From: Pocillopora verrucosa
Taxonomy: Eukaryota > Cnidaria > Anthozoa > Scleractinia > Pocilloporidae
Assembly (NCBI RefSeq): GCF_036669915.1
Contig: NC_089320.1
Location: 16,261,339 to 16,325,338 of the forward strand
Length of the DNA stretch: 64,000 bases
Direction of reading: 5' to 3'
The translations under genes were made by a program, and so were the position numbers. The notes below the pieces were generated by a model. That model did no database searches and was not told the DNA's origin. It saw nothing but the letters and a program-made list of their open reading frames with translations. Shown piece by piece: positions 22,987 to 44,600 of the stretch (within the stretch, counting starts at the first letter, position 1; every line of letters begins with the position of its first letter).

Positions 22987-24015
22987 TTAAGTCATCCCTT
23001 AATTAAAAAACGAAACGAAGCCTTATAGATTGTGGCGGTCTTGGAAGTTTTCACGTCATGATGGAGATCATGCCTGTAAAACTTCTTGATGTCATGATAT
23101 CGAGAAATAAAAAAATCCATTTTAGCCTTTATCTGTTGCCTTTAAAGGTATACATAACGGAAGTTATGGAAACTGAAAATCCGCCCTGGTAATAAGCAAT
23201 AAATCGCCATGTTCTTCTCGAATTACATGTCAAATTTAAGTATCGGTGGAAATGTCTGTAAAATTTAAGGAATAACTATGGCAACATGATCTAAAGATGA
23301 AGATAACAGTTTTGTTTTCATGTCAACAGTGATGTTATTTTTTCTATGGGATAAGTCATTCGCTCGTACTCGAACTCAGTGGTATGAAGCTTACCGTCGA
23401 GTATGTGAATAAAAGCTGTCAACTGGACCTTAAAACTCCGACAATGTGGACCAAAGATGTATGACCTAATGAATACGTAAATCATAACCTACCGTGGTTT
23501 AACAGGTACATGTAATGCCCGTTTAACTGAGACCCAAAATGTAAAACATCCTTCTGAGTAAAACTTAAAGACCTTCTGCTTCGTCAAGACGATGCTTCCA
23601 TTCAACCTCGTTCTCAGGGAACTCACTTTCAGGAAAATCAAGGGGCCTGGGCCTAAAAGAGCTTGAAGTTCGCCGTCAAATACGCAAAGCTCGAGTTCAA
23701 TGCGTACATATGATGTGTGGCGCTCGTTAGCTGTGGAACGTCCTTATCTTTAATCTCCTCTATCAAAAGACAAACGGCATTGAGGATTGGCGATGCCATG
23801 AACATTGCGGTGTATACTGAAATGGGAGCTATTCATCATAAACTCCCAAACAAATAAGCAACGAAACGATGCAATAAATGCGTACAGTGTCATCAAATTC
23901 TTCTTAAGAACGACTGAAAACGAGTCAACAAGTCTATACCGGCCGAAACAAAGACGGAAAGGAGAAAGTGTCATGTAAAATAGAATTCTTTATTTCTAAA
24001 CTCGAATTGTTGTAT

Positions 24016-24112
24016 TTACAAGCTAACAACAATTTTGCCATCAGTGTGCTGAGGTAGTTGCCGCAGGGTCTCACAGGCATCTTCCAGTGACACAGTATGG
24101 TGAATGACCGGT
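24016..24112 (-). pseudogene. Copy of the CRYZL1 terminal exon, array unit 2
   Basis: 97 nt with an intact acceptor and frame. It reads PVIHHTVSLEDACETLRQLP, then QHTDGKIVVSL and TAA. It differs from unit 4 by a V to D change. The penultimate exon is deleted in this unit, so this exon cannot be reached in the normal order. Confidence 0.8.
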
Positions 24113-24487
24113 CTAAAGAAGAAATATTGCTGGTCTAGTATGATAAGTTATGAAAGTCTGAGTCTAATTGTCGTTCAAATCACGATCTTAGAAGAACTGC
24201 AACTATGAGCAAAAGAGCTGCAGAACTTTGGTCTTCGTGCACTCTTCCCCAACCGACCCCTACTCAAATGTGACACTTCCTCTGTGGCACTGTTCACGTA
24301 CCAGAAGTTTACATCGCACTGAGTGCATTTCGACATCAAAAGAGAGAACCAGATCTCTGAGACCGATCTTGGAGTAATTACAGCTATGTTATCTAGATCC
24401 CGTGCATTTCATACATCTATCGTTGTATGCTAAAAACGTCAGGCGCAAACGTTCATTTTCCCCTTGTCTCCGTTTATCTTCTCCATA

Positions 24488-24721: not shown

Positions 24722-25018
24722 GATGTTAGGGTGTAAAGGGTTAGAGGGTACGTAGGTATCTTCCTTGTTGACCTAAGGAAAGGACCAGGGAACCTTTTTT
24801 GAGCAATCACTCAACCATTTCCTAATGGTGATTGTCAACTGATAAAAACAGGTTTGACTGTAACAAGGTAAAGCATCTAAGAATCAGGAGGGTCCAACTG
24901 GATGTAAGAGAAGGGGTAGTAATATTTCACAAATTATTAAACACATAGAAAATAAAAAGCAGAGAATACCTTATCATGTCCATTTTAGTAAGAATGCTAG
25001 AAAAGTTTATAAATTATA
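24722..25018 (-). pseudogene. CRYZL1 exon remnants, array unit 2
   Basis: The minus strand has the acceptor and start of the QQGRYL exon (upper end 24772), which runs into TAACCCTTTACACCCTAACA, a MITE end. Upstream, the LDPPDS exon keeps only its first ~20 bases of similarity (through about 24905) before an internal deletion. Downstream intron sequence is shared with units 3 and 4. Confidence 0.75.
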
Positions 25019-25416
25019 AATTATCTCATGACTAATAATCTTCTTCCCAGGCAACAATCAGCTTGTAGATGTCTCTATAGTGTTAAAATAGATCTCTAGC
25101 GTGTGTTCAATGATATACTGGCTGCCATCGATAATCACCAGGATGTGGTACTTGATTATTGGGTTTCAGTATCATCAGCCTTTGATACCATAGATCATAC
25201 GCTGTTTTTAAAGAGATTTCAACATCGTTATGAAATTGGTAAGTCCGCTCCTCAATGATTCAGCTCCTTATCTTCGTGATCGTACGTAGTCAGACGAAGT
25301 TAAAGATGTGTCATCATCGTCTGAAGAAAAAGTGCTCTATGGTGTGCCTTAGGGGTCAGTACTGGGGCTTCTACTGTTTGCAATGATTTTTGCACCTATA
25401 GAGGATGTCATTAGTA
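25019..25416 (+). mobile_element. Decayed LINE reverse transcriptase remnant at the unit 2/3 junction
   Basis: Frameshifted coding similarity: VLVYWVSVSSAFDTIDHTLF-like residues (the D..SAFDTIDH motif of CR1/L2 reverse transcriptases) and later YGVP(stop)GSVLG, a broken GVPQGS. A second copy lies at 32456-32847. It ends in an AGT trinucleotide run like the tail of the LINE at 33480-35976. Confidence 0.7.
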
Positions 25417-25509
25417 GTAGTAGTAGTACGTTCACGCAAGTGAGGGAGATTTAATAGGCTATTTGTAAATAAAGCAATTAAATGGACTTTTTTTCGGCCT
25501 CTCGGATGT

Positions 25510-25911
25510 CACGTGTACAGTCACGTCACATTACTTTGTATTGTTTGAGTATGACTGTGCCTTATATCATTAAAAGGTAATTATCGATATCAGAAGTTTT
25601 TCTTCCTTAACAACCTATGATACAGCCATACACAATAGTTACCCTGTTGAGCCTCGCTTTCATGTTGACTAGTAAATGGAACAAAAATGGTAACTATTTC
25701 GTTGTTTCAGGCTAAACAAGCTAGAATTTAGCTAGAACTGTGTAAAGTAAGCAAATAGCAGAATATCAATTGATAATCTTTAAATGTGTGACAGTTGAGA
25801 CGCTTAAATCTGCTCTTTCAGTTGTTAAAGGCCATTTTTGGTCTCTCCTTGTCACGTGTTCGGTCACGTGACCTAATTTTGCATACTCTGATTGGGATTC
25901 ATATTATAAAG
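25510..25911 (+). promoter_or_regulatory. Promoter-like cassettes reading toward TPR copy 3 from its 3' side
   Basis: Two tandem cassettes. The first has CACGTG at 25510-25515 followed by TCACGTCAC. The second has CACGTG at 25853-25858 and 25865-25870, ATTGG at 25891-25895 and TATAAAG at 25905-25911. E-boxes, a CCAAT-type box and a TATA box in this order and spacing suggest a plus-strand promoter, which would give antisense transcripts over TPR copy 3. It could equally belong to a decayed mobile element. Unit 4 has the same set. Confidence 0.4.
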
Positions 25912-26452
25912 ATGTAACGTGCACTAATAAACGTTACATTTAGGCAGTATTAGTGGTTAAACGACTGAGCCTCGTTTCCGCGAATTTAGGGGGTTTCGCA
26001 TGAAAACACCCCCTTAACACAGAACCTATACCACAATTCAACTCTACAAACTAAATGATATTAATCAGCAGGTCTTATTCTATAAAAATCCGCTATCAAA
26101 CCTTTTCTGACCCGATCATTGTACAAAACCCTCATTTTGAGGTCTTGGCTTCCGGACTATTTTGAAAGTGTCAAAACTCAGACTGTTCTGTGTCTTGGCT
26201 TGTGAATTGTGGCCATTGTGGGATAACTGGAAATTATTCTATATCAACTCAACAGCAGTTCGATCTGGAATTACCCTTGTTCCTTCGCTCTAATGATAAA
26301 CACAAGCGAGTAAATGTGTTTTAGAACAATTAAAAATTAATTTTTAACATTTCTGTTGACCGTAACAGAAACCAAGATATTAACCGTAAAATGGCCAATA
26401 TTTTAATCAAAATTCCCGCACTCTTTAAGTAGTGATCTCGACATTGTGTTCA

Positions 26453-27814
26453 CTACTCAAGAGATGAGCTGTCCCCTTCTCTATCAGTTTGATCTTCACT
26501 GCTTGAACACGATTCACTGCTGAGCCATTCTCCTTTTTCTAGCCCTTGCATATCAGACAAGCGCCTAATGCGCTTCTCGGCAGAATCAAGTTCCAGCTCA
26601 AACCTATGTGCGAGGATGAGCCCCATCGCTTCTTCAGCCTTCTCGACAGCCATAGCAATGTTTTGTTCAAAGTAGTGCTGATCAGATCGCAAAAGAAGAT
26701 ACTTTATTCTTGTCCCTAATCCGATGTTACCATCAGCCGTTCTAGATTCAGTTAAATCAAGGTGCCTTTTTGCTTTCATAACGTCCTCTTTGCAGATGTC
26801 GGTGTCGTTGTTCGCTACCTTGAAGCAGTGCTTTAGGAGCAGATCTGCCATTTTGGTGTTGATGTATCCATTGTTGTTTACAGAGTACTGACATGCCCGC
26901 TGATAAGACTTGTACGCTTCAGTTTTTCGGGTGTCCCGAGCACTGTTCGGTGCAGGTAAAGAGTCAAGCAGTGCGCCACGAGTGTAACACAGTTCTCCTT
27001 TATCGTCGTGAGAATCCTGAAGGTCAAGAGCTTTTTGTGCCTTTTCCACGCATCGCATAGCATTTCCAAATTTTCTCTGACGCTTGTACACCGCCGTCAA
27101 AAGATTCAAGGCTCGTCCCGTCAGAATTCCCGGGTTTTTCATCTCCAGTTCCCGTTTAAGTACAGATTTTAGTATTGTTTTGGTACCTTTAAGATTATTC
27201 TGGAAATAAAAGGCCTTTGCGCGCTCAATCTCTAAAATTGCTTTCATGTCAACATCTTCAGGCGACCTTCTTGCCAACTCTTCTTGTATTATTCGTTCAT
27301 GTGCCTCAAACGTCCCGTTATCTTGTAGATCGTGTAGCTTTGTCATGAGTGAGATATAACGGGAATTATTCATACATCCGCGCTTTGGAATGACTGGCAT
27401 TGGAGAATGGACAGAGCTGAGTTGAACCAATATTAAGTCGACTTGGATGCCTTGACTGTCTTCTTCTATGTCCAGGGGTTTTATGACTGAGTCGTTTTCT
27501 TCATCAGAAGAAGTGAGACAACTCTTGTTACGACATTTACAAGTCTGCACATGACACAGTGTGTTGTTAGAACCATTCTGGATTATGGGAAAACCTGAAG
27601 CCTTAATAGATAGAACACTCTGGGATCGTCTCATCTCTTGATCCTGATCTGTTGCTTTTGCTGCATGTTTCCTATGATGTGACTTAAATTTCCCATGGAC
27701 AATTCCTCCAGTAACTGGTTCTCGAGTCTGAACTTCATCGGTGTAAGCTTCAGGAACATCCTCGACTAATTCTACAAGAAAAACTTCACAGGAAAGACTA
27801 TCCTGAGTAGTCAT
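26453..27814 (-). CDS. TPR-like helical protein, array copy 3 (453 aa, single coding exon)
   Basis: Open from ATG (MTTQDSLSCEVFLVEL) to TAA. The N-terminal region has CHVQTCKCRNKSC, an acidic patch and the SPMPVIPKRGC boundary (about residues 137-147). The helical TPR-like part runs to about residue 425, with GRALNLLTAVYKRQRKFGNA in the middle, then a Ser/Glu/Asp-rich tail. It is 13 residues shorter than copies 1 and 2 near residue 35. The first ~142 residues equal copy 4 exactly; the remainder differs at about 35 sites. The promoter has lost the CCAAT box that is closest to the TATA position in copies 1 and 2. Function unknown. Confidence 0.85.
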   Translation of the reverse strand: MTTQDSLSCEVFLVELVEDVPEAYTDEVQTREPVTGGIVHGKFKSHHRKHAAKATDQDQEMRRSQSVLSIKASGFPIIQNGSNNTLCHVQTCKCRNKSCLTSSDEENDSVIKPLDIEEDSQGIQVDLILVQLSSVHSPMPVIPKRGCMNNSRYISLMTKLHDLQDNGTFEAHERIIQEELARRSPEDVDMKAILEIERAKAFYFQNNLKGTKTILKSVLKRELEMKNPGILTGRALNLLTAVYKRQRKFGNAMRCVEKAQKALDLQDSHDDKGELCYTRGALLDSLPAPNSARDTRKTEAYKSYQRACQYSVNNNGYINTKMADLLLKHCFKVANNDTDICKEDVMKAKRHLDLTESRTADGNIGLGTRIKYLLLRSDQHYFEQNIAMAVEKAEEAMGLILAHRFELELDSAEKRIRRLSDMQGLEKGEWLSSESCSSSEDQTDREGDSSSLE

Positions 27815-28179
27815 TGTTTAGGCGATTGAAAGTAAGTGAACCAGTAACTGAAACGTTCCTAATGTGGGCATGACTTGATGATTACCGTTATTCAAAGTAA
27901 GAGAACGTTTGAAGACAATTTAGGTGCACCTGAAAATAAAACAAAAAGACAAAAACAGGATTTAAACAATGGATGGATTATAATACGAAACCTAATGAAA
28001 AACATTCAATATGCTTGGGAAATCAAGAAACCCGCTCGGCATACTTACATAAGTCGCACCTAATGGACAGAAAAAACTGAGCATGATAGAACGCGTTCAA
28101 ATTTCATCGAGGGTCCATGTTATACCAAAGTCAAGTAACCACAACTGCCACCACACCAAGGAAAGGAAAAATATCTCAG

Positions 28180-28230
28180 CTGGAATCTATAGGCGTACAC
28201 AGGCACCCTGCGTGTTTTCTCGACCAATCA
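28180..28230 (-). promoter_or_regulatory. Altered promoter of TPR copy 3
   Basis: The region equivalent to the copy 1 and 2 promoters reads CTATAGATT in place of TATATAG or TATAAAG. About 38 bases carrying the gene-facing CCAAT box are missing; only the distal CCAAT (near 28222) remains. Copy 4 has the same changes. Confidence 0.5.
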
Positions 28231-28659
28231 TAGGGCGAATTAGAGCAAAACTGGTCCAAGCCGAATTACTTTCGACCCTCAAATTTCAGACGGATTTAAG
28301 GTTCGAAGCAATTGCGTTTCTGGGCTTTTTCATCATGATCCTTAAACAAGGGAAAGATTGAACCTTTGGAACGTAGCTAGGTTTTGAAACTTCTCAAAGA
28401 ACTTTTAAAAATTAAACATTTTTCTCATAGGTCAAAGTGTCCGGAAATAGAATCAATAGAAGTTTGGTTATATTCCTGTACTAAGTCTCGTATATAACAA
28501 TACTAAAAACTCTCAGTGTGACTACCTGAAAGAGAAAAATGTAAGGAAAGTGCAAAGTCTCGGGAAATTTTATTAAATTTTTCATGGTCCCAGGAAAAGC
28601 TCTAGTACGGAAGCACATTTTAAAAAGCCAATCATTGACTTAGGGTAGCTTCGTTGTTT

Positions 28660-29280
28660 ATTAGCGATATTTATGCAGGCTGGCCCAGTTCAGCTTCAAG
28701 CTGGTTTAAATAGGGGCCTGCTTAGGACATACTGAGTAAAACAAAGTGTACATAGAAATATAAAATACAAAAGGAGCCGACAACACAAATTACAATTTAC
28801 ACATAAGATAGACAATAATAAAATGTACAATGTTACATTAAAAAGTACATTACATCAATAACTGAAATGGAGTTTGAGAAGTTACGTAGAGAAGTTGTGT
28901 TTCGTAGTTTGCTAGTCAGAGCATTCCAAGCCTTTGCACCTTTGTAACGAAGGGAACCTTGATATTTAGATGGTTTTAGCCAGGGGCAATCGTAAAAGGT
29001 CTCTATATCTGGTATTGTTAACCTCCCTTCAGAGCGAGAGTTACGAGAGGAAACCTAGTTACTTTTTCTCAAAGTTTTCCCTCAAGATATTTACTAGTTC
29101 GGCTGACGATATAATACGCCTTCTGCTATGGGTATCAAGTTTTAGACTTGAGTCGTCACCATGACAACATTACTTCGAATGACAGGCAGAGGTATTCCAA
29201 TTTTTGGCCTAGATACCTCAATATCTTTACTTTCCCATGGTGCTATGTCTTCATTCTTTGTCATATCATGCAACACTTTG
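28660..29280 (-). mobile_element. LINE 3' end fragment, array unit 3
   Basis: Same element as at 21100-21680, here with a further internal deletion (the FKKLLK segment is shortened). Minus-strand coding similarity includes QGSxRYKGAKAWN-type residues. Confidence 0.65.
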
Positions 29281-30949
29281 ACAGTTTTATAATATTCTCT
29301 AATTTGTCATTTTTCTTAATGTATTCGATTAGCTCTGGCAGATTTTAACAAAATAGGCTATTTGATAGGAACTGTGTGTGGTTATGACTGAGCAAATTTT
29401 TCAAAAAATTTACCGAAGGAAACGCGATAAACCTTATTAGAAAGCCTTTCTTTTTTTCTTATTCCCAAAACATTACGCCATAAAATAACATTTCATTAAG
29501 ATCGATATTTTGAATCTGTTGTCGATTCTGTTGCCATTTTGCAATCTTTCTCTCGGTGTTTCCTTTTTGTTTACCTCTTTTTCAGGCGTAGAGGGCCAAT
29601 GAATATCGTGGGTATGGTTACTAGAAACTCTAGAGATCATTCGATAAAAGTTGTATTTTGTTATACTCTTTTAATACACGTTTTTAGATAATAATCGCGC
29701 GGTCGCATCGAGCTGCCATGTTAGTTCACAGCCAGCCCAAGCTCCAGCTGTGAGATAGTCAGAGAGTTATGGCGAAATTATAAGAGCTTGTATGGGAATA
29801 ATTACGACTGCTCTTAGGAATAAAAAAATACAGTCAGATTCTCAATTTGAAATGAAAAATAAATGTTGGTCATCGGGGGTTGAAGAAAATATGTTCCATT
29901 ATATTCTCTGCGTATTCCACCAATTATGACAAAATTTTCATGTTTATTGCTTCCTTGTTGTCAAGAGTCGGTCATAAATAATTCATCCCTTAATTAAAAC
30001 ACGAAACGAAGCCATATAGATTGAAGCGGTCTTTTCACGTCATGATGGAGATCGTTTCTATAAAACTTCATGATGCTATGATATCCAGAAATAAAGAAAA
30101 TTCGTTTTTGCCTTTATCTGTTGCCTTTAAAGGTATACATAACGGAGGTTGTGGAAACCGAAATCCGTCATGGTAATATTCTTCTCGTTAAGTGAAAGCA
30201 TCAGTGGAAACGTCTCAGAACAATTTAAGGAAGGAATAAGGAATACTATGGCAAAATTGTCTAAAGATGAAGATGACAGTTTTGTTTTCATGTCAAAAGT
30301 GATGCTCATACTAGAGCTCAGTAGTATGAAGGTTACCGTCGAGTATTTGAATAAAAGCTGTCAACTGGACCTTAAAACTCCGACAATGTGGACCAAAGAA
30401 CTATAACCTGATGAACATGTAAAACATATCCTACCGTGGTTTGACAGGTACATGTAATGCCCGTTTAACTGAGGCCAAAACTGTAAAACATCCTTCTAGG
30501 TGAAACTAAAAGACTTTCTGCTTCGTCAAAACAAAGCTTACGCACAGCCTCGTTCTCAGGGAACTCACTTTTAGGAAAATCAAGGGACCTGGGCCTAAGA
30601 GAGCTTGAAGTTCGTCGTCAAGCACACAAAGCTCGACTTCAATGCATATGATGTGTGGCGCTTATTAGCTGTGGATGGTCCTTATCTATAATTTCCACTA
30701 TCAAAAGACAAACGGCATTGAGGATTGGCGATGCCATGAACATTGCGGTGTATGCTGAAATGGGAGCTATTCATCATAAACTCCCAAACAAATAAGAGAC
30801 AAAACGATGCAATACAGTGTCATCATATCCTTCTTAAGAACGACTGCATGAAAACGAGTCAACAAGTCTATATCGGCCGAAACAAAGATGGAAAGGAAGA
30901 AGTGTCACGTAAAATAGAATTCTTTATTTCTAGACTCGATTTGTTATAT

Positions 30950-31046
30950 TTACAAGCTAACAACAATTTTGCCAACAGTGTGCTGAGGTAGTTGCTGCAG
31001 GGTTTCACAGGCATCTTCCAGAGACACAGTATGGTGAATGACCGGT
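30950..31046 (-). pseudogene. Copy of the CRYZL1 terminal exon, array unit 3 (intact)
   Basis: 97 nt with acceptor TTCTTTAG and phase conserved. It reads PVIHHTVSLEDACETLQQLP, then QHTVGKIVVSL and TAA, followed within 30 bases by AATAAA on the minus strand. It is as intact as the unit 4 exon, so it may serve as an alternative last exon. Confidence 0.8.
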
Positions 31047-31527
31047 CTAAAGAAGAAAACATTAATATAGATTGTCTAGTATGTTAAGTTATAAACGTCT
31101 GAGTCTAATCGTCGTTCAAATCACGATCTTAGAAAAACTGCCACTATGAGCAAAAGAGCTGCAGAACTTTGGTCTTTGCGCACTCTTCCCCAACCGACCC
31201 CTACTCAAATGTAACACTTCCTCTGTGGCACTGTTCACGTACCAGAAGTTTACATCGCACTGAGTGCATTTCGACATCAAAAGAGAGAACCAGATCTCTG
31301 AGACCGATCTTGGAGTCATTACAGCCATATTATCTAGTTGCCGCATTTCACACCATTAATCTACCGTTGTATGCTAAAAAAATTCAGGCTCAAACGTTCA
31401 TCTTCCCCGTCTCCATTTATCTCCTCTATAATTCTTTTCCTCTTTTTCCCCTTCCCTGAAACTTAGATTCGCGTAAAGTTTGTTTGATCCCTTGAAACTA
31501 TTGATGGAAGAAGTCTTCTGTTCTTAC

Positions 31528-32332
31528 CTTATCACTGAGTTAGACAGTTTATCCATTATGTCTTGGAGGATGTCTTCACACAAGTTAAGAGAAAACGGGC
31601 AAATTTCGGTCAAAACGAGCAATAACGTCTCTCTGATAAGTTGGACCAAAACAAAAACACAAAAAAACAGAAGAGACACGAACAAAATAAGGCGGCGACG
31701 AGAAAAAGAAGGCTAAACCGCAACATCACTATTTGTAGGGAGACATAGGTCATATTTTCTTCACTTCATGATATCAGTCGAAGGTCAGATGTTAAGGATT
31801 GGAAAAAGGACAGTGAGAAAGTCAACGGTTCTCAGAAGGCCCCTTGTGGGTTTCATCCTCTTCAACTTCTTCGAATGACTAGTATCTAATTTCTCCTTAC
31901 AATATCACCCCTAAATAAAACACAAAGCACACGAGAATAAAGGAAACGATCACTAACTAAAGAAGTTCTTGATCGTTAAACAAATTCTCCATGTTAGCAC
32001 CTGATGAAATGTAAAGAGAACAGTTGAGAGAATATGCATACTGATGTTAGGGTGCAAAGGATACGTAGGTATCTTCCCTGTTGACCTAAGGAAAGGACAG
32101 ACTCAAAACGTAAATCAAAGGCACCAGGGAACCTTTTTTCAGCAATCACTTAACCATTTCCCGATAGTGATTGTCAACTGATGAAAACAGGTTTGACTAA
32201 AATAAGGTGAACATCCACGCAATTTTCTGTCCTCCATAAATCCCTACCTTTTGTTAAAGTCCATGAATGTTCAAAGAGAAAACTGATTGCAACTCCTTTG
32301 AGGTAAAGCATCTGAGAATCAGGAGGGTCCAA
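31528..32332 (-). pseudogene. Copies of CRYZL1 exons and intervening MITE, array unit 3
   Basis: In minus-strand order: 32248-32332 (LDPPDSQMLYLKGVAISFLF, complete with splice sites), the QQGRYLRI segment with upper end 32085, MITE sequence, then the LCEDILQDIMDKLSNSV segment ending at donor 31528. There are no CRYZL1 exons upstream in this unit, so the block is an orphan 3' gene end duplicated with the TPR gene. Confidence 0.8.
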
Positions 32333-32455
32333 CTGGATGTAAGAGAAGGGTTAGTAATATTTCACAAATTATTAATTACATAGAAAATAAAAAGCAGAGA
32401 ATACCTTATCATGTCCATCGTAGTAAGAATGCTAGAAAAGTTTATAAATTATACA

Positions 32456-32847
32456 TTATCTCATTACTAATAACCTTCTTCCCAGGCAACAATCAGCTTG
32501 TAGATGTCTCTATAGTGTTAAAACAGATCTCTTGCGTGTGTTCAATGATATACTGGCTGCCATCGATAATCACCAGGATGTGGTACTTGTTTATTGGGTT
32601 TCAGTATCATCAGCCTTTGATACCATAGATCATACGCTGTTTTTAAAGAGATTTCAATATCGTTATGAAATTGGTAAGTTCGCTCCTCAATGATTCAGCT
32701 CCTTATCTTCGTGATCGTACGTAGTCAGACGAAGTTAAAGATGTGTCATCATCGTCTGAAGAAAAGGTGCTCTATGGCGTGCCTTAGGGGTCAGTACTGG
32801 GGCTTCTACTGTTTGCAATGATTTTTGCACCTATAGAGGATGTTATT
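32456..32847 (+). mobile_element. Decayed LINE reverse transcriptase remnant, array unit 3 end
   Basis: Near-identical to 25019-25416, with the same AFDTIDHTLF and broken GVP(stop)GS features. At GAGGATGTTATTA it is interrupted by the SINE and LINE insertions; the continuing trinucleotide tail resumes near 35970. Confidence 0.7.
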
Positions 32848-33113
32848 AAATAGAATAAGAGAGATGGTAAGTTTTGAGCTCGGTAAAGAAATAGAGAAAG
32901 ATGTTTTTCGTCTTGTAACGAGCGTGGGACAAAAATTCTGAGTCCCCATGAGGAATCGAACCTCAGACCCTTGGACTCAGTACCGCGCTGCTCTATCACT
33001 GAGCCACAGAGACTCTACGGTGGGCGAGGTCTATTACGAAGTTCATATGATATGCGTCCTGCGTACTGCTAGGATCAGCAATGTCAATGAACTTACCATC
33101 TCTCTTAAGCTAT
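32848..33113 (-). repeat. tRNA-derived SINE with terminal inverted repeats, copy 2
   Basis: The minus-strand tRNA-like core at 32938-33016 has GAGTCTC and GGGACTC able to form a 7-bp acceptor-like stem, a D-arm-like GCTCAGTGATAGAGC and a T-arm-like TGAGGTTCGATTCCTCA. No convincing anticodon stem is present. The ends form inverted repeats of about 20 bp: AAATAGAATAAGAGAGATGG at the left, matched by CCATCTCTCTTAAGCTATTT at the right. Confidence 0.75.
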
Positions 33114-33479
33114 TTACAAACATGACGCTATCGAAACGAGTTTAATTTAACAGGTTTTACTTCCAACACTTACTTACTGTTTGGCTACTAGCAGTTTTGA
33201 AGTTGCTATTGACATTTGCTGCGTTTGATCTTAGTTTTACCTTTCATGAGGGATGCCACTGCATGTCAGACGATGAAATTTGCAAGAACCCGCAGGGTCT
33301 AACTTGCATCAGTGACTCAGGAGAAAGCGACGATAAGTGAAGAGGCGTTTAAACTGTGAAATAATCTGATGTTTGATTGAGTCTTGATTTCATGCTAAAT
33401 AGTTCTCGTAGAGGCCACTAATTGTTACAATATCATGTATTTTAGCCTCAAAATGTATCCCTCTGACCTAAAATGTGGT

Positions 33480-35976
33480 ATGAATAAGAGAATTCGTAAA
33501 ACATACTTACTGGTATAATTAGTACACCTTCCCCGGATAGCTTTCTTTCCGATCACTGCTCTATTTTGTGCTGTCTCAATGTTTCGAAAGTACTGGCTAC
33601 TGTTAAATACACCAGTTTCAGGAAGCTCAAGTCCCTGGATTTAGTTGCCTTTAAAAACGATATTGCTGGTAGTGATTTGTACAACATCGCTTCAATTGAT
33701 TGTAATGAAGTTGCAGAGCTTTATAACAACTGTATGCGCTCCATTTTGGATCGTCTTGCACCGATGACATCAAAAAGAGTGTTCGCTCTTAGAAGCTAAG
33801 CGTCAACGTCGAAAAGCAGAGAGATAATGGAGATCTTCCAAATGTCAGTCTGATCTAGCTGTTTTTAAGAGAAAAAGGAACCATGTGACTTTTCTTATGA
33901 ATGAGGCTAGGCGGGTCTATTATAGTATTCTCATAGCAGAAAATAGCCGCGATCAAAAATGTCTGTTTAAAGTAAGCAAGAAAGTCTTGAACATCACAGG
34001 TACCCCAGTTTTGCCACTGCATGAAGAGAAACAGAAATAAGCTACTGAGATGGGTATGTTTTTCATTAAGAAAATCGCCGATATTCGTTTAGACCTCGAT
34101 AATCATGATAACAACAAGCTTCCACAGACCGCGTTTCTAATGACATCGAAATTGATTCTGTACTCTTCAAGTTTATTTCTCTGTCTCAAGAAGAAGTGCA
34201 CGACCTGGTTCGAGCATCCAGTAAGAAGTCTTGTGGCTTAGATCCAATTCCCACGAAGCTATAGTTGGACTGTTTAGATTTTTTCCTTCCAATCATCACT
34301 AAGATGATCAATTACTCCTCAGAAAACAGTGACTTTCCCTCTGCATAGAAAAATGCTTTGGTTCTGCCTTTGCTCAAGAAAGGTGGTTTGGAACCTATAT
34401 TTAAAAATTATAGACCTGTCAGTAATTTACAGTTTGTGTCCAAACTTGCTGAAAGTGCAGTTGCTAAACAACTCCATCGTTACATGGTAGCGAATGATTT
34501 ATTTCCAGTGTTACAGTCTTCGTACAGAAAGTTTCACAGTACTGAAACCGCACTCTTGAAAGTGAAAAATGAAATTCTATTAAATATAAATAAACAGCAT
34601 GTCACACTGCTTGTTTTGTTAGACTTGAGTGCGGCATTTGACACCACTGACCTGGCATTGTATTTTACCGGAGAGACTTAAATCTGGGTTTGGGATTCGT
34701 GGTACAGCACTGTCATGGTTTGCATCTTATCTAAGTAACAGATCCCAGCAAATACTTATTGACAGTTCCCTCTCTATGAACTTTGAACTGACTTGTGGTG
34801 TCCCTCAGGGCTCATGCCTTTGCCCATTATTGTTTGTATTGTATGCGAGCAAGATTTTTCAAATCGTGGACAAACATCTGCCTGGCATTCACTGTTATGC
34901 AGATGACAGCCAACTTTATTTGTCCTTCTGCCCCAATGCTAGTGTTAACCAAGAGGTTGCTTTGGCTAGAATGGAAAGCTGTATTTATGATATTCGTAAT
35001 TGGATGTTGATGATAAATTGAAACTGAACGACGACAAGATTGAGTTCCTGATCATTGGTACATCCCAGCAACTCGCTAAAGTAACTATTTCCAGTCTCCG
35101 TGTTAGCAAGTCAGCAATTACTCCCGTGTCATCTGCGATGAACTTGGGCTCATGGTTCGATGCAAAACTCATAATGGCAACTCACTTACAAAGAACATGC
35201 AACTCTGCCTCTTACTACTTATACAATCTGAGGAGGACAAGAAAGTACCCTTCTAAAGAGAACACAAAAACTCTGGTCCATGCCTTTATCTCAAGCAGAA
35301 TTGACTATTGCAATAGTTTATTGTGGGGTGCTCCGGAACATCAAATTAACAAATTGCAACGTGTTCAACACGTGTGCTAGGTAAAAATGCAATGAAAGTA
35401 AATATTGTCACATTACTCCTTTATTGATGGAGTTACACTGGTTACCTATTTAGTTAAGAATTGAATTTAAGATCGTATTGATTGTTTTCAAGATTTTTAA
35501 GGGCTTAGCACCGTCTTATCTAAGTTCTTTAATTACACGCAAGCCCGAGTCAAGATATAATTTAAGGAATTCCAGTGACCTTACTCAGTTATCCTAGTTT
35601 TAAGTCTAAGACAACAATTGGTGACCGGGCATTTATGTTTGCGGCACCTAAGCTATGGAATGATTTACCAAGGGATATAAGAGAATATAGTTCTATTAAT
35701 AGTTTTTAATCGAAACTTAAGACGTTTCTTTTTAAGAAAATATTTTATAATTGATAAAGTTTTTATAGTTATTTAAGCATTGATAAAGTTTTAAATAGAA
35801 CATTTCAAGTAATAATTAGTTATATGTTATATTTCTCATTTATCATGAATCGCATTTAATTGTTATATCATTATTATTTTTATTTTATCTTTCGTTTATT
35901 GTAATTATTATGTTACGCCGCGTTTGAATATCTATACATAGAATTTGCGCCCTAGAAGTCAATAAATTATTATTAT
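33480..35976 (+). mobile_element. 5'-truncated CR1/L2-like LINE with reverse transcriptase (inactive)
   Basis: Begins in the end of the endonuclease domain (DSFLSDHCSILCCLNVS near 33540). It continues through the linker (33566-33799) into the reverse transcriptase: KNYRPVSNLQFVSKLAES, LLDLSAAFDTTD, GVPQGSCLCPLLFVLY and the catalytic YADD near 34900, then SSRIDYCNSLLWGAPEHQIN near 35310. Frames shift at about 34670 and 35020 and stops occur, so it is not functional, though recent. It ends in a microsatellite-like ATT/AGT tail. It lies exactly at the junction of array units 3 and 4. Confidence 0.88.
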
Positions 35977-36414
35977 TAGTAGTAGTAGTACGTTCACGCA
36001 AGTGAGGGAGATTTAATAGGCTATTTGTAAATAAAGCAATTAAATGGACTTTTTTTCGGCCTCTCGGATGTCACGTGTACAGTCATGTCACATTACTTTG
36101 TATTGTTTGAGTATGACTGTGCCTTATATCATTAAAAGGTAATTATCGATATCAGAAGTTTTTCTTCCTTAACAACCTATGATACAGCCATACACAATAG
36201 TTACCTTATTGAGCCTCGCTTTCATGTCGACTAGTAAATGGAACAAAAATGGTAACTATTTCGTTGTTTCAGGCTAAACAGGCTAGAATTTAGCTAAAAC
36301 TGTGTAAAGTAAGCAAATAGCAGAATATCAATTGATAATCTTTAAATGTGTGACAGTTAAGACGCTTAAATCTGCTATTTCAGTTGTTAAAGGCCATTTT
36401 TGGTCTCTCCTTGT

Positions 36415-36473
36415 CACGTGTTCGGTCACGTGACCTAATTTTGCATACTCTGATTGGGATTCGTATTATAAAG
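36415..36473 (+). promoter_or_regulatory. Promoter-like cassette, array unit 4
   Basis: CACGTG at 36415-36420 and 36427-36432, then ATTGG, then TATAAAG at 36467-36473. It is conserved between units 3 and 4 with one or two base changes. It points into the 3' end of TPR copy 4. Confidence 0.4.
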
Positions 36474-37014
36474 ATGTAACGTACACTAATAAACGTTACA
36501 TTTAGGCAGTATTAGTGGTTAAATGGCTGAGCCTCGTTTTCGCGAATTTAGGGGGTTTTGCATGAAAACACCCCCTTAACACAGAACCTATACCACAATT
36601 CAACTCTACAAACTAAATGACATTGATCAGCAGGTCTTATTCTATAAAAATCCGCTATCAAACCTTTTCTGACCCGATCATTGTACAAAACCCTCATTTT
36701 GAGGTCTTGGCTTCCGGACTATTTTGAAAGTGTCAAAACTTAGACTGTTCTGTGTCTTGGCTTGTGAATTGTGGCCATTGTGGGATAACTGGAAATTATT
36801 CTATATCAACTCAACAGCAGCTCGATCTGGAATTACCCTTGTTCCTTCACCCTAATGGTAAACACAAGCGAGTAAATGTGTTTTAGAACAATTAAAAATT
36901 AATTTTTAACATTTCTGTTGACCGTACCGGAAACTAAGATATTAACCGTAAAATGGCCAATATTTTAATCAAAATTCCCGCACTCTTTAAGTAGTGATCT
37001 CGACATTGTGTTCA

Positions 37015-38376
37015 TTACTCAAGAGATGAGCTGTCGGCTTCGCTATCAGTTTGATCTTCACTGCTTGAACACGATTCACTGCTGAGCCATTCCCCTTTTT
37101 CTAGCTCCTGCATATAAGACAAGCGCCTAATGCGCTTCTCGGCAGAATCAAGTTCCAGCTCAAACCCATTTGCGAGGATGAGCCCCATCGCTTCTTCAGC
37201 CTTCTCGAGAGCCATAGCAATGTTTTGTTCAAAGTAGTGCTGATCAGATCGCAAAAGAAGATGCTTTATTCTTGTCCCTAATCCCATGTTACCATCAGCC
37301 GTTCTAGATTCAGTTAAATCAAGGTGCCTTTTTGCTTTCATAACGTCCTCTTTGCAGATGTCGGTGTTGTTGTTCGCTACCTTGGAGCAAGGCTTTAGGC
37401 ACAGAGCTGCCATTTTGATGCTGATGTATTCTCTGTTGTTTACAGTGTACTGACATGCCCGCTGATAAGACTTGTACACTTCAGTTTTTCGGGTGTCCCG
37501 AGCACTGTTCGGTGCAGGTAAAGAGTCAAGTAGTGCGCCACGACTGTAAAACAGTTCTCCTTTATCGTCGTGAGAATCCTGAAGTTCAAGAGCTTTTTGT
37601 GCCTTTTCCACGCATCTCATAGCATTTCCAAATTTTCTCTGACGCTTGTACACCGCCGTCAAAAGATTCAAGGCTCGTCCCGTCAGAATTCCCGGGTTTT
37701 TCATCTGCAGTTCCCGTTTAAGTACAGATTTTAGTATTGTTTTGGTACCTTTAAGATTATTCTGGAAATAAAAGGCCTTTGCGCGCTCAATCTCTAAAAT
37801 TGCTTTCATGTCAACATCTTCAGGCGACCTTCTTGCCAACTGTTCTTGTATTATTCGTTCATGTGCCTCAAACATCCCGTTACCTTGTAGATCGTGTAGC
37901 TTTGATATGAGTAAGATATAAGGGAAAGTACTCATCCATCCGCGCTTTGGAATGACTGGCATTGGAGAATGGACAGAGCTGAGTTGAACCAATATTAAGT
38001 CGACTTGGATGCCTTGACTGTCTTCTTCTATGTCCAGGGGTTTTATGACTGAGTCGTTTTCTTCATCAGAAGAAGTGAGACAACTCTTGTTACGACATTT
38101 ACAAGTCTGCACATGACACAGTGTGTTGTTAGAACCATTCTGGATTATGGGAAAACCTGAAGCCTTAATAGATAGAACACTCTGGGATCGTCTCATCTCT
38201 TGATCCTGATCTGTTGCTTTTGCTGCATGTTTCCTATGATGTGACTTAAATTTCCCATGGACAATTCCTCCAGTAACTGGTTCTCGAGTCTGAACTTCAT
38301 CGGTGTAAGCTTCAGGAACATCCTCGACTAATTCTACTAGAAAAACTTCACAGGAAAGACTATCCTGAGTAGTCAT
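37015..38376 (-). CDS. TPR-like helical protein, array copy 4 (453 aa, single coding exon)
   Basis: Open frame with the same start and stop as copy 3. Residues 1-142 are identical to copy 3. From residue ~147 the two diverge: RGWMSTFPYILLISKLHDLQ replaces RGCMNNSRYISLMTKLHDLQ, and another cluster lies at about 290-330 (YTVNNREYISIKMAALCLKP versus YSVNNNGYINTKMADLLLKH). Helical periodicity and length are kept, so both should fold alike while presenting different surfaces. It is the first TPR gene downstream of CRYZL1 on the same strand. No enzymatic or targeting motif is seen. Confidence 0.85.
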   Translation of the reverse strand: MTTQDSLSCEVFLVELVEDVPEAYTDEVQTREPVTGGIVHGKFKSHHRKHAAKATDQDQEMRRSQSVLSIKASGFPIIQNGSNNTLCHVQTCKCRNKSCLTSSDEENDSVIKPLDIEEDSQGIQVDLILVQLSSVHSPMPVIPKRGWMSTFPYILLISKLHDLQGNGMFEAHERIIQEQLARRSPEDVDMKAILEIERAKAFYFQNNLKGTKTILKSVLKRELQMKNPGILTGRALNLLTAVYKRQRKFGNAMRCVEKAQKALELQDSHDDKGELFYSRGALLDSLPAPNSARDTRKTEVYKSYQRACQYTVNNREYISIKMAALCLKPCSKVANNNTDICKEDVMKAKRHLDLTESRTADGNMGLGTRIKHLLLRSDQHYFEQNIAMALEKAEEAMGLILANGFELELDSAEKRIRRLSYMQELEKGEWLSSESCSSSEDQTDSEADSSSLE

Positions 38377-39086
38377 TGTTTAGGCGATTGAAAGTAAGTG
38401 AACCAGTAACTGAAACGTTCCTAATGTGGGCATGACTTGATAATTACCGTTATTCAAAGTAAGAGAACGTTTGAAGACAATTTAGGTGCACCTGAAAATA
38501 AAACAAAAAGACAAAAACAGGATTTAAACAATGGATGGATTATAATACGAAACCTAATGAAAAACATTCAATATGCTTGGGAAATCAAGAAACCCGCTCG
38601 GCATACTTACATAAGTCGAACCTAACGGACAGAAAAAACTGAACATGATAGAACGCGTTCAAATTTCATCGAGGGTCCATGTTATACCAAAGTCAAGTAA
38701 CCACAACTGCCACCACACCAGGGAAAGGAAAAATATCTCAGCTGGAATCTATAGGCGTACACAGGCACCCTGCGTGTTTTCTCGACCAATCATGGGGCGA
38801 ATTAGAGCAAAACTGGTCCAAGCCGAATTACTTTCGACCCTCAAATTTCAGACGGATTTAAGGTTCGAAGCAATTGCGTTTCTGGGCTTTTTCATCATGA
38901 TCCTTAAACAAGGGAAAGATTGAACCTTTGGAACGTAGCTAGGTTTTGAAACTTCTCAAAGAACTTTTAAAAATTAAACATTTTTCTCATAGGTCAAAGT
39001 GTCCGGAAATAGAATCAATAGAAGTTTGGTTATATTCCTGTAATAAGTCTCGTATATAACAATACTAAAAACTCTCAGTGTGACTA

Positions 39087-39247
39087 AAGGGGTAAGTTTC
39101 TAAAGAAACTGTAGTGCTGCGTCGGTGGGAGGGTATAGCAGGTAATTTAGTGTTAACAACTGGGTTGAAAACGTAAATTAGCCACCGTAAAGGGTAAAAA
39201 AGCTGACGTTTCGAGCTTTAGCCCTTCGTCAGAGCGATTGATTAATT
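39087..39247. repeat. Foldback element insertion with 12-bp target duplication (unit 4 only)
   Basis: 161 bases flanked by TCAGTGTGACTA at 39075-39086 and 39248-39259. Unit 3 has a single TCAGTGTGACTA at the same place, so it is the empty site. The insert contains the GTAAGTTTCTAAAGAAACTG and GGTAATTTAGTGTTAAC blocks of the palindromic family. Confidence 0.88.
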
Positions 39248-39394
39248 TCAGTGTGACTACCTGAAAGAGAAAAATGTAAGGAAAGTGCAAAGTCTCGGGA
39301 AATTTTATTAAATTTTTCATGGTCCCAGGAAAAGCTCTAGTACGGAAGCATATTTTAAAAAGCCAATCATTGACTTAGTGTAGCTTCGTTGTTT

Positions 39395-40020
39395 ATTAGC
39401 GATATTTATGCAGGCTGGCCCAGTTCAGCTTCAAGCTGGTTTAAATAGGGGTCTGATTAGGACATACTGAGTAAAACAAAGTGTACATAGAAATATAAAA
39501 TACAAAAGGAGCCGACAACACAAATTACAATTTACACATAAGATAGACAATAATAAAATGTACAATGTTACATTAAAAAGTACATTACATCAATAACTGA
39601 AATGGAGTTTGAGAAGTTATGTAGAGAAGTTATGTTTCGTAGTTTGCTAGTCAGAGCATTCCAAGCCTTTGCACCTTTGTAGCGAAGGGAACCTTGATAT
39701 TTAGATGGTTTTTAGCCAGGGGCAATTGTAAAAGGTCTCTATATCTGGTATTGTTAACCTCCCTTCAGAGCGAGAGTTACGAGAGGAAACCTAGTTACTT
39801 TTTCTCAAAGTTTTCCCTCAAGATATTTACTAGTTCGGCTGACGATATAATACGCCTTCTGCTATGGGTATCAAGTTTTAGACTTGAGTCGTCACCATGA
39901 CAACATTACTTCGAATGACAGGCAGAGGTATTCCAATTTTTGGCCTAGATACCTCAATATCTTTACTTTCCCATGGTGCTATGTCTTCATTCTTTGTCAT
40001 ATTATACAACACTTTGACAG
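39395..40020 (-). mobile_element. LINE 3' end fragment, array unit 4
   Basis: Counterpart of 28660-29280 in unit 3, with the same internal shortening relative to unit 2. Confidence 0.65.
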
Positions 40021-41667
40021 TTTTATAATATTCTCTAATTTGTCATTTTTCTTAATGTATTCAATTAGCTCTGGCAGATTTTAACAAAATAGGCTATTTG
40101 ATAGGAACTGTATGTGGTTATGACTGAGCAAATTTTTCAAAAAATTTACCGAAGGAAACGCGATAAACCTTATTAGAAAGCCTTTCTTTTTTTCTTATTC
40201 CCAAAACATTACGCCATAAAATAACATTTCATTAAGATCGATATTTTGAATCTGTTGTCGATTCTGTTGCCATTTCGCAATCTTTCTCTCGGTGTTTCCT
40301 TTTTGTTTACCTCTTTTTCAGGCGTAGAGGGCCAATGAATATCGTGGGTATGGTTACTAGAAACTCTAGAGATCATTCGATAAAAGTTGTATTTTGTTAT
40401 ACTCTTTTAATACACGTTTTACATAATAATCGCGCGGTCGCATCGAGCTGCCATGTTAGTTCACAGCCAGCCCAAGCTCCAGCTGTGAGATAGTCAGAGA
40501 GTTATGGCGAAATTATAAGAGTTTGTATGGGAATAATTACGACTGCTCTTAGGAATAAAAAAATACAGTCAGATTCTCAATTTGAAATGAAAAATAAATG
40601 TTGGTCATCGGGGGTTGAAGAAAATATGTTCCATTATATTCTCTGCGTATTCCACCAATTATGACAAAATTTTCATGTTTATTGCTTCCTTGTTGTCAAG
40701 AGTCGGTCATAAATAATTCATCCCTTAATTAAAACACGAAACGAAGCCATATAGATTGAAGCGGTCTTTTCACGTCATGATGGAGATCGTTCCTACAAAA
40801 CTTCTTGATGCTATGATATCCAGAAATAAAGAAAATTCGTTTTTGCCTTTATCTGTTGCCTTTAAAGGTATACATAACGGAAGTTGTGGAAACCGAAAAT
40901 CCGTCATGGTAATATTCTTCTCGAATTACATGTTAAGTGAAAGCATCAGTGGAAACGTCTCAGAACAATTTAAGGAAGGAATAAGGAATACTATGGCAAA
41001 ATGATCTAAAGATGAAGATGACAGTTTTGTTTTCATGTCAAAAGTGATGCTCATACTAGAGCTCAGTAGTATGAAGGTTACCGTCGAGTATTTGAATAAA
41101 AGCTGTCAACTGGACCTTAAAACTCCGACAATGTGGACCAAAGAACTATAACCTGATGAACATGTAAAACATATCCTACCGTGGTTTGACAGGTACATGT
41201 AATGCCTGTTTAACTGAGGCCAAAACTGTAAAACATCCTTCTAGGTGAAACTAAAAGACTTTCTGCTTCGTCAAAACAAAGCTTACGCACAGCCTCGTTC
41301 TCAGGGAACTCACTTTTAGGAAAATCAAGGGACCTGGGCCTAAGAGAGCTTGAAGTTCGTCGTCAAGCACACAAAGCTCGACTTCAATGCATATGATGTG
41401 TGGCGCTTATTAGCTGTGGATGGTCCTTATCTATAATTTCCACTATCAAAAGACAAACGGCATTGAGGATTGGCGATGCCATGAACATTGCGGTGTATAC
41501 TGAAATGGGAGCTATTCATCATAAACTCCCAAACAAATAAGCAACAAAACGATACAATACAGTGTCATCATATCCTTCTTAAGAACGACTGCATGAAAAC
41601 GAGTCAACAAGTCTATATCGGCCGAAACAAAGATGGAAAAGAAGAAGTGTCACGTAAAATAGAATTC

Positions 41668-41673
41668 TTTATT
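41668..41673 (-). terminator. Polyadenylation signal after the CRYZL1 terminal exon
   Basis: Minus-strand AATAAA about 22 bases past the TAA at 41695-41697. It is conserved in the unit 3 copy. Confidence 0.6.
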
Positions 41674-41694
41674 TCTAGACTCGAATTGTTATAT

Positions 41695-44600
41695 TTACAA
41701 GCTAACAACAATTTTGCCAACAGTGTGCTGAGGTAGTTGCCGCAGGGTTTCACAGGCATCTTCCAGAGACACAGTATGGTGAATGACCGGTCTAAAGAAG
41801 AAAACATTAATATAGATTGTCTAGTATGTTAAGTTATAAACGTCTGAGTCTAATCGTCGTTCAAATCACGATCTTAGAAAAACTGCCACTATGAGCAAAA
41901 GAGCTGCAGAACTTTGGTCTTTGCGCACTCTTCCCCAACCGACCCTTACTCAAATGTAACACTTCCTCTGTGGCACTGTTCACGTACCAGAAGTTTACAT
42001 CGCCCTGAGTGCATTTCGACATCAAAAGAGAGAACCAGATCTCTGAGACCGATCTTGGAGTCATTACAGCCATGTTATCTAGTTCCCGCATTTCACACCA
42101 TTAATCTACCGTTGTATGCTAAAAAAAAGTCAGGCTCAAACGTTCATCTTCCCCGTCTCCATTTATCTCCTCTATAATTCTTTTCCTCTTTTTCCCCTTC
42201 CCTTAAACTTAGATTCGCGTAAAGTTTGTTTGATCCCTTGAAACTATTGATGGAAGAAGTCTTCTGTTCTTACCTTATCACTGAGTTAGACAGTTTATCC
42301 ATTATGTCTTGGAGGATGTCTTCACACAAGTTAAGAGAAAACGGGCAAATTTCGGTCAAAACGAGTAATAACGTCTCTCTGATACGTTGGACCAAAAAAA
42401 AACACAAAAAAACAGAAGAGACACGAACAAAATAAGGCGGCGACGAGAAAAAGAAGGCTAAACCGCAACATCACTATTTGTAGGGAGACATAGGTCATAT
42501 TTTCTTCACTTCATGATATCAGTCGAAGGTCAGATGTTAAGGATTAGAAAAAGGACAGTGAGAAAGTCAACGGTTCTCAGAAGGCCCCTTGTGGGTTTCA
42601 TCCTCTTCAACTTCTTCGAATGACTAGTATCTAATTTCTCCTTACAATATCACCCCTAAATAAAACACAAAGCACACGAGAATAAAGGAAACGATCACTA
42701 ACTAAAGAAGTTCTTGATCGTTAAACAAATTCTCCATGTTAGCACCTGATGAAATGTAAAGAGAACAGTTGAGAGAATATGCATACTGATGTTAGGGTGC
42801 AAAGGATACGTAGGTATCTTCCTTGTTGACCTAAGGAAAGGACAGACTCAAAACGTAAATCAAAGGCACCAGGGAACCTTTTTTCAGCAATCACTTAACC
42901 ATTTCCCGATAGTGATTGTCAACTGATGAAAGCAGGTTTGACTGAAATAAGGTGAACATCCACGCAATTTACTGTCCTCCATAAATCCCTACCTTTTGAT
43001 AAAGTCCATGAATGTTCAAAGAGAAAACTGATTGCAGCTCCTTTGAGGTAAAGCATCTGAGAATCAGGAGGGTCCAACTGGATGTAAGAGAAGGGTTAGT
43101 AGTATTTCACAATTAGTGATCACATGGAAAATAAAAATTAGATTACACTTCATCTTGTCTATTGTAGTAAGTATGCTAAGAAAGTTTGAGAATTCTGAAA
43201 CTCTTGAATAAAGTGCACCTTTTGATTGCATATCATAAAATTAAAACCAAAGTAATCACAGCAGCTGATCACAGAAAAGAAAAATGTGCAACAAATGTAA
43301 AATTGTCCTTAGAGGATTCTTACCTGAAGATCTTGATGAGAAGTGATCCATCTTCCAGCCACTCCAAGACAGGAGATCACATCATGTTTGGATGGCACTG
43401 AATTTTGGCCAGGTAGACCAATGCCTGTTCCCTTAATTATAACATCATCATCTTGACGAAGAACTGTTCAATAGGAGATTTGATTGGTTCATTTTAAAAA
43501 TTAAACAGTTCATTTAATTTTGTTTCAGATCTGCTATAATTTTTTTTTAAACTAATATGAATGTACCAGTAGGGAATGACAATCAAAAGGAAGACACCAT
43601 TTTAATTCAAACTCATTAAGTTCTAACAGAATGGTACCATATAAAAATAACCTGAAGTGTGTGCAGTGATCTACAATTTTGCTGGACAGCGAGAACAACA
43701 AATAAATCCCAGCATCCCATTACATCAATGGTCAATATGAAAAGTGGCCACTCAAAACCAAAACTAAACTCCTGCAAAGGGTTAAGGCTGACCCTCTCAA
43801 CAAGAGTTTGTGTGATTTTCTCTTACCTCCATTATCAATCACACAATCCACACCAAGTCCACCAGTTTCATCCATACAAATATCTACTAATGACTTCTTT
43901 GTTTTCCTCAAGTCTATTACATTTGCTACAAGAAGACATAGAGATTGTGTTAACCCTCCACAAGAATAGAAAGCCTCCTTACTGTTCTCTACATTTTTGT
44001 TACATAAAAAAATGCATCTGTCAGTGATGGTTCTTAAGATATATGTCTCAGGACATATGTTTTAAAAAACATGACAGCTCAACACTAACTCTCTTTTACT
44101 TTCAGGATGGTGACCTAAAAAAGAAGGGAAGGAATGAAATGGTTCGAAATATCTTGTTATCCATGTATGACACAGGATGAAGCAGGGATATTGTTAGCCA
44201 TGTATCAGGACTGTTAATTCACTTGACATGCCCACAACCTTGGGGACTTTCGTTCCATCAGATATCACTTTCCCTTTTATTACAAATGGTTAGCCCAATA
44301 GTGGAGTAATGCCCTTACCAAGTGGTGGTTGAAGACTCTGCAGGTAAATAACTTCTTCTTCTGATGATGCTGTTGCAAGAACCTGTCATTAATGTTGAGG
44401 AGAATACAACTATTATCATATGAATGTATGGCCCACCAACACTCTAGCTGGAAAAACAAGACAAAATCCCTCTTGTAAGGGCTGCACCCAATAGCTGTAC
44501 AAAAGGCCATTTCACCCTGAAAGATGTGAGAGGCAAGAAGAAAGGAAAAAAAAAAGAAAGAGCAGGAGATATATGATAAATTACTTATTGACTGAGTGGG

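Follow-up and report, generated by a model that had tools for sequence, protein, structure and literature searches.

The 64-kb stretch of the Pocillopora verrucosa genome analysed here (the window; 64,000 nt of contig NC_089320.1) carries a tandem array of four intact coding regions, copies 1 to 4 (c1–c4), all on the minus strand and each in one exon (Table 1). Their proteins are 70–92% identical. c3 and c4 share one in-frame gap of 13 codons relative to c1 and c2. Ahead of the ATG, the frame stays open for one codon in c2 and c4 and for nine codons in c1. The stop lying shortly before the ATG in these three copies indicates that the proteins of c1–c4 are probably complete. Judged from the sequence, this stop and the promoter-like motifs described below make further coding exons unlikely. 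In a neutral simulation of 300 open reading frames (ORFs), 20%, 5% and none were stop-free after 45, 100 and 200 substitutions, respectively. Under codon model M1a, 28% of the codons in the C-terminal part fall in a class with omega (the ratio of replacement to silent rates) near 0. Both results suggest that c1–c4 are probably functional, despite a high average omega.

c3 and c4 differ in 41 of 454 codons, the stop included, by 35 replacements, five silent changes and one stop-codon variant. Residues 1–146 (the N third) are identical, with a single silent change at codon 13, and 35 of the 307 residues that follow (the C part) differ. Altogether, 39 of the 45 coding base differences alter an amino acid. 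These counts bear out the original prediction, made from the sequence of this stretch, which described about 142 identical N-terminal codons, about 35 differences in the last ~311 residues, and a majority of differences changing the amino acid.

The replacements are concentrated at codons 147–168 (cluster 1, 10 of 22 codons) and codons 311–337 (cluster 2, 10 of 27 codons). Clusters had been predicted at 147–165 and 290–330; both were found, except that residues 290–310 hold only one replacement. The clustering of differences in the C part exceeds chance in windows of 32, 50, 60 and 80 nt (permutation p 0.012, 0.0012, 0.006 and 0.0024), the densest windows holding 8 differences in 32 nt and 11 in 50 nt. 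When the 44 base differences of the C part are polarised against c1 and c2, 20 are derived in c3, 15 in c4 and 9 stay unpolarised, and the derived states are interleaved. Cluster 1 contains changes from both the c3 and the c4 lineages, and the changes in cluster 2 are mostly those of c3. A 20-codon window over cluster 1 also shows 9 replacements between c1 and c2; the window over cluster 2 shows only 1. GC-biased conversion was rejected as the main cause in the C part, the polarised changes being 15 strong-to-weak, 11 weak-to-strong, 7 strong-to-strong and 2 weak-to-weak.

Divergence along the c3 and c4 units

c3 and c4 are the products of one 7.4-kb tandem duplication (24866–32300 versus 32301–43187), with a constant offset of 10562 between their ORF coordinates. 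Silent divergence since the duplication is about 2.5–3%. The tests stop at 32150, since similarity falls off from about 32350 onwards.

Divergence between the two units changes in a step. Over all sites it is 3.51% in 25410–27374 and 0.98% in 27375–32150, the change point falling after 27374 (p 0.0005, the lowest value that 2000 permutations allow; interval of two log-likelihood units 27369–27453). This exact position is driven by the replacement changes. With silent and non-coding sites only, the step stays (2.6% versus 1.0%, p 0.006) and is located at 26367–27146. In codon terms, all differences place the left limit of the young block at codon 147, and silent sites place it anywhere from codon 223 to a point past the stop. 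A break exactly at codon 147, the domain border, is weakened by the silent-only test. Non-coding sites alone give 42 of 1591 downstream (24866–25413 versus 32301–32848 included) against 46 of 4334 upstream (27815–32150), p 3e-5.

The flanks of the two ORFs follow the same step. The 5′ flank 27815–28524 differs at 7 of 710 sites, and within it 28081–28500 differs at 4 of 420, in agreement with the one or two bases per hundred predicted there. Downstream, 24866–25413 differs from 32301–32848 at 17 of 548 sites (3.1%). The flanks had been called nearly identical; this is true upstream (~1.0%) but not downstream (2.4–3.1%), so that on the side of the diverged C part the flank, too, has diverged. 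Equal divergence of flank and coding sequence, which the original prediction had argued against, is thus half realised: the downstream flank is diverged, yet at 2.4% against 4.8% in the C part (p 0.005).

The outgroup copy c1 is more distant upstream than downstream, c1 and c3 differing at 36 of 289 sites in the 3′ flank and at 122 of 709 in the 5′ flank; c2, with 49 sites, is scarcely usable as a downstream outgroup. The outgroup-normalised comparison of left and right gives p 1e-8 over all sites. A GENECONV-like test, the kind of check proposed originally, finds a longest run of 84 polymorphic sites identical in c3 and c4 (p 0.0005) when all sites are used. The pair therefore contains a block of low divergence relative to the outgroup, with its boundary inside the pair, as looked for in partial gene conversion. 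One duplication should not give two ages, and a later exchange homogenising the upstream block is the simplest account. From these site patterns, the upstream block, the N third included, was probably homogenised between c3 and c4 after the duplication.

Replacement excess and the predicted fold

By counting, the C part (here from codon 146 and with the stop codon) has 37 replacement and 6 silent changes, giving a replacement divergence (dN) of 0.053 and a silent divergence (dS) of 0.031. Replacement changes occupy 37 of 726 sites (5.1%), and local silent changes, taken from the synonymous sites of the C part plus the 3′ flank, 31 of 1241 (2.5%); the ratio is 2.0 (p 0.002).

A home-made codon model was applied to the four sequences with the tree ((c3,c4),c2,c1), codons 147–453 being used for the C part. 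Omega is 2.30 on the c3 and c4 branches versus 0.70 elsewhere (p 0.007), and is above 1 on these branches at p 0.042. The branch-site test, run with c1 and c2 included as originally proposed, supports the expected selection (p 0.0056 for the C part; 0.006 for the whole ORF). Leaving out the four codons with two changes gives omega 2.93 (p 0.023, branch-site 0.019), and leaving out all 36 codons with multi-base differences between any two copies gives 3.53 (p 0.048, branch-site 0.041). Without cluster 1, omega is 1.64 (p 0.26, branch-site 0.009). The selection signal sits in the two clusters and is derived in both copies. In the N third, by contrast, c3 and c4 have a branch omega near 0 (p 0.10), as against 0.94 for the remaining branches.

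The AlphaFold model of the c4 domain has six TPR-like helix pairs and a capping helix, with a predicted local distance difference test (pLDDT) score of 63.5. No helix is predicted in the N third, where confidence is very low, suggesting that this third is probably disordered. In the predicted model, cluster 1 falls on helix A of pair 1 and the neighbouring loops, and cluster 2 on a loop and helix A of pair 5. Predicted helices A2, A3, B2 and B5 are unchanged between c3 and c4. The substitution A324D places a charged residue of c3 inside predicted helix A5.

Genes of this array had been labelled TPR from the sequence. At the fold level the label is supported, the model showing an antiparallel array of helix pairs followed by a capping helix as in TPR proteins. 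At the sequence level it is not: no Pfam TPR family matches above its curated cut-off, the only hit being TPR_2 in c3 (E 6.8, 7.5 bits versus a cut-off of 27), with none listed for c1, c2 and c4. The six A helices start 38–51 residues apart in the model and not at the 34-residue length of the TPR repeat, hence the label "TPR-like". Among solved structures, the fold matches at the head of the list are TPR proteins, kinesin light chain and LGN included. The TPR domains of these two are among the matches listed first by Foldseek in the PDB for both models (E 3.6e-4 for the full model and 2.5e-3 for the domain model); their identity is 11–18% with no match at the sequence level, and a shared fold shows no function.

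Sequence searches of Pfam, NCBIfam and PDB gave nothing above cut-off in the four copies; FliS, Tho1, Amuc_1098 and secretagogin appeared as weak matches below cut-off and were rejected as relatives. None of the four ORFs has a CHAT domain (at E up to 1) or an NB-ARC or NACHT domain. A four-copy profile matched none of the solved chains, which presumably include IFIT1 and IFIT5, at E up to 5; no profile of the IFIT family itself was used in a search. No IFIT entry is among the 50 fold matches listed per search, which does not exclude IFIT. Foldseek against viral models returned nothing at E 0.001. Scans of viral and prokaryotic contig collections with the four-copy alignment returned 108 and 65 pattern stretches and no relative, little being expected there for an animal gene. 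No paper on this gene family was found by title or abstract.

Upstream elements, insertions and neighbouring genes

A TATA-like box lies at the aligned position in all four copies, 371–384 nt before the ATG; in c3 and c4 it reads GCCTATAGA, an imperfect TATA. An inverted CCAAT box matches upstream of each ORF. The putative 5′ untranslated region (5′UTR) intron has the donor GTAAGT in c2, c3 and c4, a weaker one in c1, and the acceptor TTTATTTTCAG in all four copies. Each ORF is thus probably preceded by a first 5′UTR exon, an intron and a leader of 115 nt (131 in c1). An upstream ATG in the probable first exon (28111–28121; 38673–38683) opens the short frame MDPR in c3 and c4. The frame is longer in c1 (32 codons) and c2 (>90 codons unspliced), a one-base deletion common to c3 and c4 being responsible for the short form.

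At corresponding places upstream of c2, c3 and c4 (20976, 28528 and 39263, minus strand) lies the interferon-response-like TTTCTCTTTC. These three are among 13 TTTCNNTTTC sites in the window, versus 7.7 expected, and an enrichment of interferon-type promoter motifs was rejected as not clearly above chance. Heat-shock-type motifs (2 versus 1.2 expected) were likewise at or near chance.

The c4 unit alone carries a 3.1-kb insertion (32849–35971) that ends in ATT repeats and contains a fragment resembling the reverse transcriptase of long interspersed nuclear elements (Pfam RVT_1, 34349–35018); the c3 unit has the empty site at about 25413. A 173-nt stretch upstream of c4 (39076–39248), ~700 nt before the ATG, is missing from c3 at 28512 and has a relative at 22745–22845 (86% over 101 nt). 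The intergenic sequence 22984–24487 of the c2 unit is ~85% identical to 29975–31430 (c3 unit) and 40710–42176 (c4 unit). These three are ~66% identical to 15789–17010 upstream of c1 and have no clear ORF. Also upstream of c1 is a minisatellite (17048–17157) of 4.4 copies of a C-rich 25-nt unit.

To the right of the array, the two quinone oxidoreductase-like pieces have no Pfam match. The uninterrupted ORF farther right matches solved DNA polymerase lambda, the best chain at 488.7 bits, and this gene is apparently intron-free in this genome.

Table 1. Positions of the array, its parts and other features in the window
Feature	Position	Strand	Remarks
Copy 1 (c1)	12944..14344	-	intact single-exon ORF, 466 amino acids
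Copy 2 (c2)	18890..20290	-	intact single-exon ORF, 466 amino acids
Copy 3 (c3)	26453..27814	-	intact ORF, 453 amino acids
Copy 4 (c4)	37015..38376	-	intact ORF, 453 amino acids
N third of c3, codons 1-146	27377..27814	-	versus c4: 1 silent, 0 replacement differences
C part of c3, codon 147 to stop	26453..27376	-	44/924 bases differ from c4
Cluster 1 in c3, codons 147-168	27311..27376	-	10 replacements, 0 silent
Cluster 2 in c3, codons 311-337	26804..26884	-	10 replaced codons, 0 silent codons
Cluster 1 in c4, codons 147-168	37873..37938	-	from the 10562 offset
Cluster 2 in c4, codons 311-337	37366..37446	-	from the 10562 offset
Young block of c3 unit	27375..32150		~1.0% divergence from c4
Older downstream flank of c3	25410..26452		25/1043 sites (2.4%) differ from c4
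Tandem duplication unit with c3 (7.4 kb)	24866..32300		limits set by start and end of similarity
Tandem duplication unit with c4	32301..43187		32849-35971 inserted
TATA-like box, c3	28186..28194	-	371 nt before ATG; putative
TATA-like box, c4	38748-38756	-	
TATA-like box, c2	20665-20673	-	
TATA-like box, c1	14729-14737	-	
Probable 5′UTR intron, c3	27930..28048	-	119 nt; from sequence motifs
Quinone oxidoreductase-like exons	43735-45294		right of array; by inspection of translation
DNA polymerase lambda ORF	56240-57895	+	551 amino acids, uninterrupted
CNNM exon	60905-61177		

Origin and meaning of the mosaic

We lean, with some reserve, towards a history of duplication, upstream re-homogenisation and diversifying selection in the TPR-like domain. 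On this view a gene for a TPR-like adaptor or recognition protein would have been duplicated in tandem, both copies, c3 and c4, staying functional. Ectopic exchange between the two 7.4-kb units (gene conversion or unequal crossing-over) may later have re-homogenised the promoter, the 5′UTR, at least the N-terminal third and ~4 kb upstream. The promoter and N part would have been left nearly identical while the TPR-like domain went on diverging. Within that domain, amino-acid changes would have been selected for, chiefly in helix A of pairs 1 and 5 and in the adjoining loops. In TPR superhelices, helix A and the adjoining loops lie on or near the concave ligand groove. The most likely role of the proteins would be to bind a partner that changes fast, for instance a component of a pathogen, of a symbiont or of self, each twin having its own domain behind a shared and constant N part. 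The original prediction offered positive selection or conversion from another paralogue; both processes are favoured, in different places, and not an import from a paralogue into the C part.

Several results weigh against this history. On the side of exchange, the GENECONV-like run test with silent sites alone finds no significant conversion run (p 0.22), and the outgroup-normalised comparison restricted to the two short flanks gives p 0.053. Since the silent-site step lies at 26367–27146 and not at codon 147, cluster 1 could be part of the young block, and the data do not fix a conversion border at the domain border. On the side of selection, the replacement excess against the synonymous sites of the C part alone is 1.7-fold and not significant (Fisher p 0.15), so the significance depends on the flanks as neutral reference or on codon models. 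M2a versus M1a gives p 0.075 in the C part, and the whole-ORF branch omega of 1.90 is above 1 only at p 0.10. Without cluster 2, omega is 1.76 (p 0.23, branch-site 0.19); with both clusters removed it drops to 1.02 and no test reaches significance. Codons 315 and 326, which rank highest in the branch-site test, both carry multi-base changes, a known source of false signal. The codon model is home-made and covers four sequences only, with uncorrected p values. Its M0 omega of 0.88 is not distinguishable from 1 (p 0.46), showing that constraint is weak. On the side of structure, confidence in the AlphaFold models is low to moderate (47.0 and 63.5) and, where the clusters lie, low. For the domain model, Foldseek gives nothing in the PDB at E 0.001 or better, and the TM-scores are low. 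The enrichment of replacements in helix A versus B is only at p 0.08.

Conversion could also have acted in the C part itself, if c3, c4 or both took up short tracts, without selection, from at least one diverged paralogue located outside the window. The tight clustering of the differences fits this, and so does the loss of all replacement excess once both clusters are removed. Other pairs, too, differ mainly by replacements in the cluster 1 window (c1–c2 9 to 1, c2–c3 12.5 to 2.5), so that a donor from the family would bring few silent changes. However, the derived states are interleaved on both branches, and at least two imports would be needed. The clusters also lack any silent codon, whereas over the whole C part c1–c3 and c2–c3 have one silent change per 2.5–2.9 replacements. 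Neither c1 nor c2 fits as donor, and we consider such imports unlikely.

Relaxed constraint or incipient decay in c3 and c4, where purifying selection is lost in the helical part and none acts for change, is doubtful to the same degree. Relaxation can neither raise omega beyond 1 nor make replacements accumulate at double the silent rate found locally, although an omega above 1 is itself reached only at p 0.042. In its favour are a background omega as high as 0.70 (C part) and 0.94 (N part) and the charged residue that A324D puts inside a predicted helix of c3; but both ORFs are intact and four predicted helices are unchanged. Still less likely is a duplication of a single age in which mutation rate or constraint varies along the unit, 5 kb upstream mutating slowly or being constrained, and no conversion occurred: purifying selection could explain an N third free of replacements, and the silent-only run test and the normalised short-flank comparison agree with it, but the outgroup copies are no closer on the upstream side and the omega of the N third is ~0.9 on other branches.

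Among known systems, the mammalian pair IFIT1/IFIT1B comes closest to the preferred history of exchange and diversifying selection. IFIT genes have a coding region that is essentially one exon after a short first exon, and c3 and c4, with their coding region in one exon after a short probable first exon, resemble this layout. In the 146 residues before their helices, probably disordered, they are unlike IFIT. According to Daugherty et al. 2016 (PMC4887208), gene conversion homogenises the 5′ parts of IFIT1 and IFIT1B in mammals and the 3′ parts steadily diverge. Like these genes, c3 and c4 are neighbouring TPR-type paralogues, alike in 5′ and diverging in 3′ parts. IFIT1 is also reported to evolve rapidly (PMC12543323). 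The resemblance is one of evolutionary pattern and does not amount to membership of the IFIT family. In IFIT genes the break is some two thirds of the way along; that of c3 and c4, at codon 147 by all differences and between codon 223 and a point past the stop by silent sites, may have a similar place.

Stony corals have expanded TPR-CHAT genes, according to PMC12314368. c1–c4 are likewise tandemly duplicated and TPR-type, but differ in having no CHAT domain, no Pfam TPR above cut-off, 453–466 amino acids and one coding exon. Among tandem-duplicated coral families, recognition or immunity families are prominent and gene conversion is called very rare in PMC10236652; c1–c4 form a tandem array as those families do.

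Our best reading of the analysis is that c1–c4 are a diversifying tandem TPR-like family that evolves like IFIT1/IFIT1B. They present a moderately strong case of mosaic evolution with probable diversifying selection and not a new kind of system, partial conversion with diversifying selection in tandem duplicates being already well known in general. It is a bolder and rather improbable proposition that the cnidarian array arrived independently of IFIT at the same design, that of tandem TPR-like genes with a single coding exon in which conversion keeps the promoter and N part alike and conflict with a pathogen or symbiont pushes the helical recognition domains apart. If the mosaic history is true, residues 147–168 and 311–337 would be a short testable list of positions where twin genes of an unnamed protein family were driven apart. 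The young block of c3 and c4 would be a counter-example to the rarity of coral gene conversion stated in PMC10236652, with conversion-shaped mosaic duplicates in just this lineage, and the array would offer a parallel outside vertebrates to the IFIT1/IFIT1B pattern.

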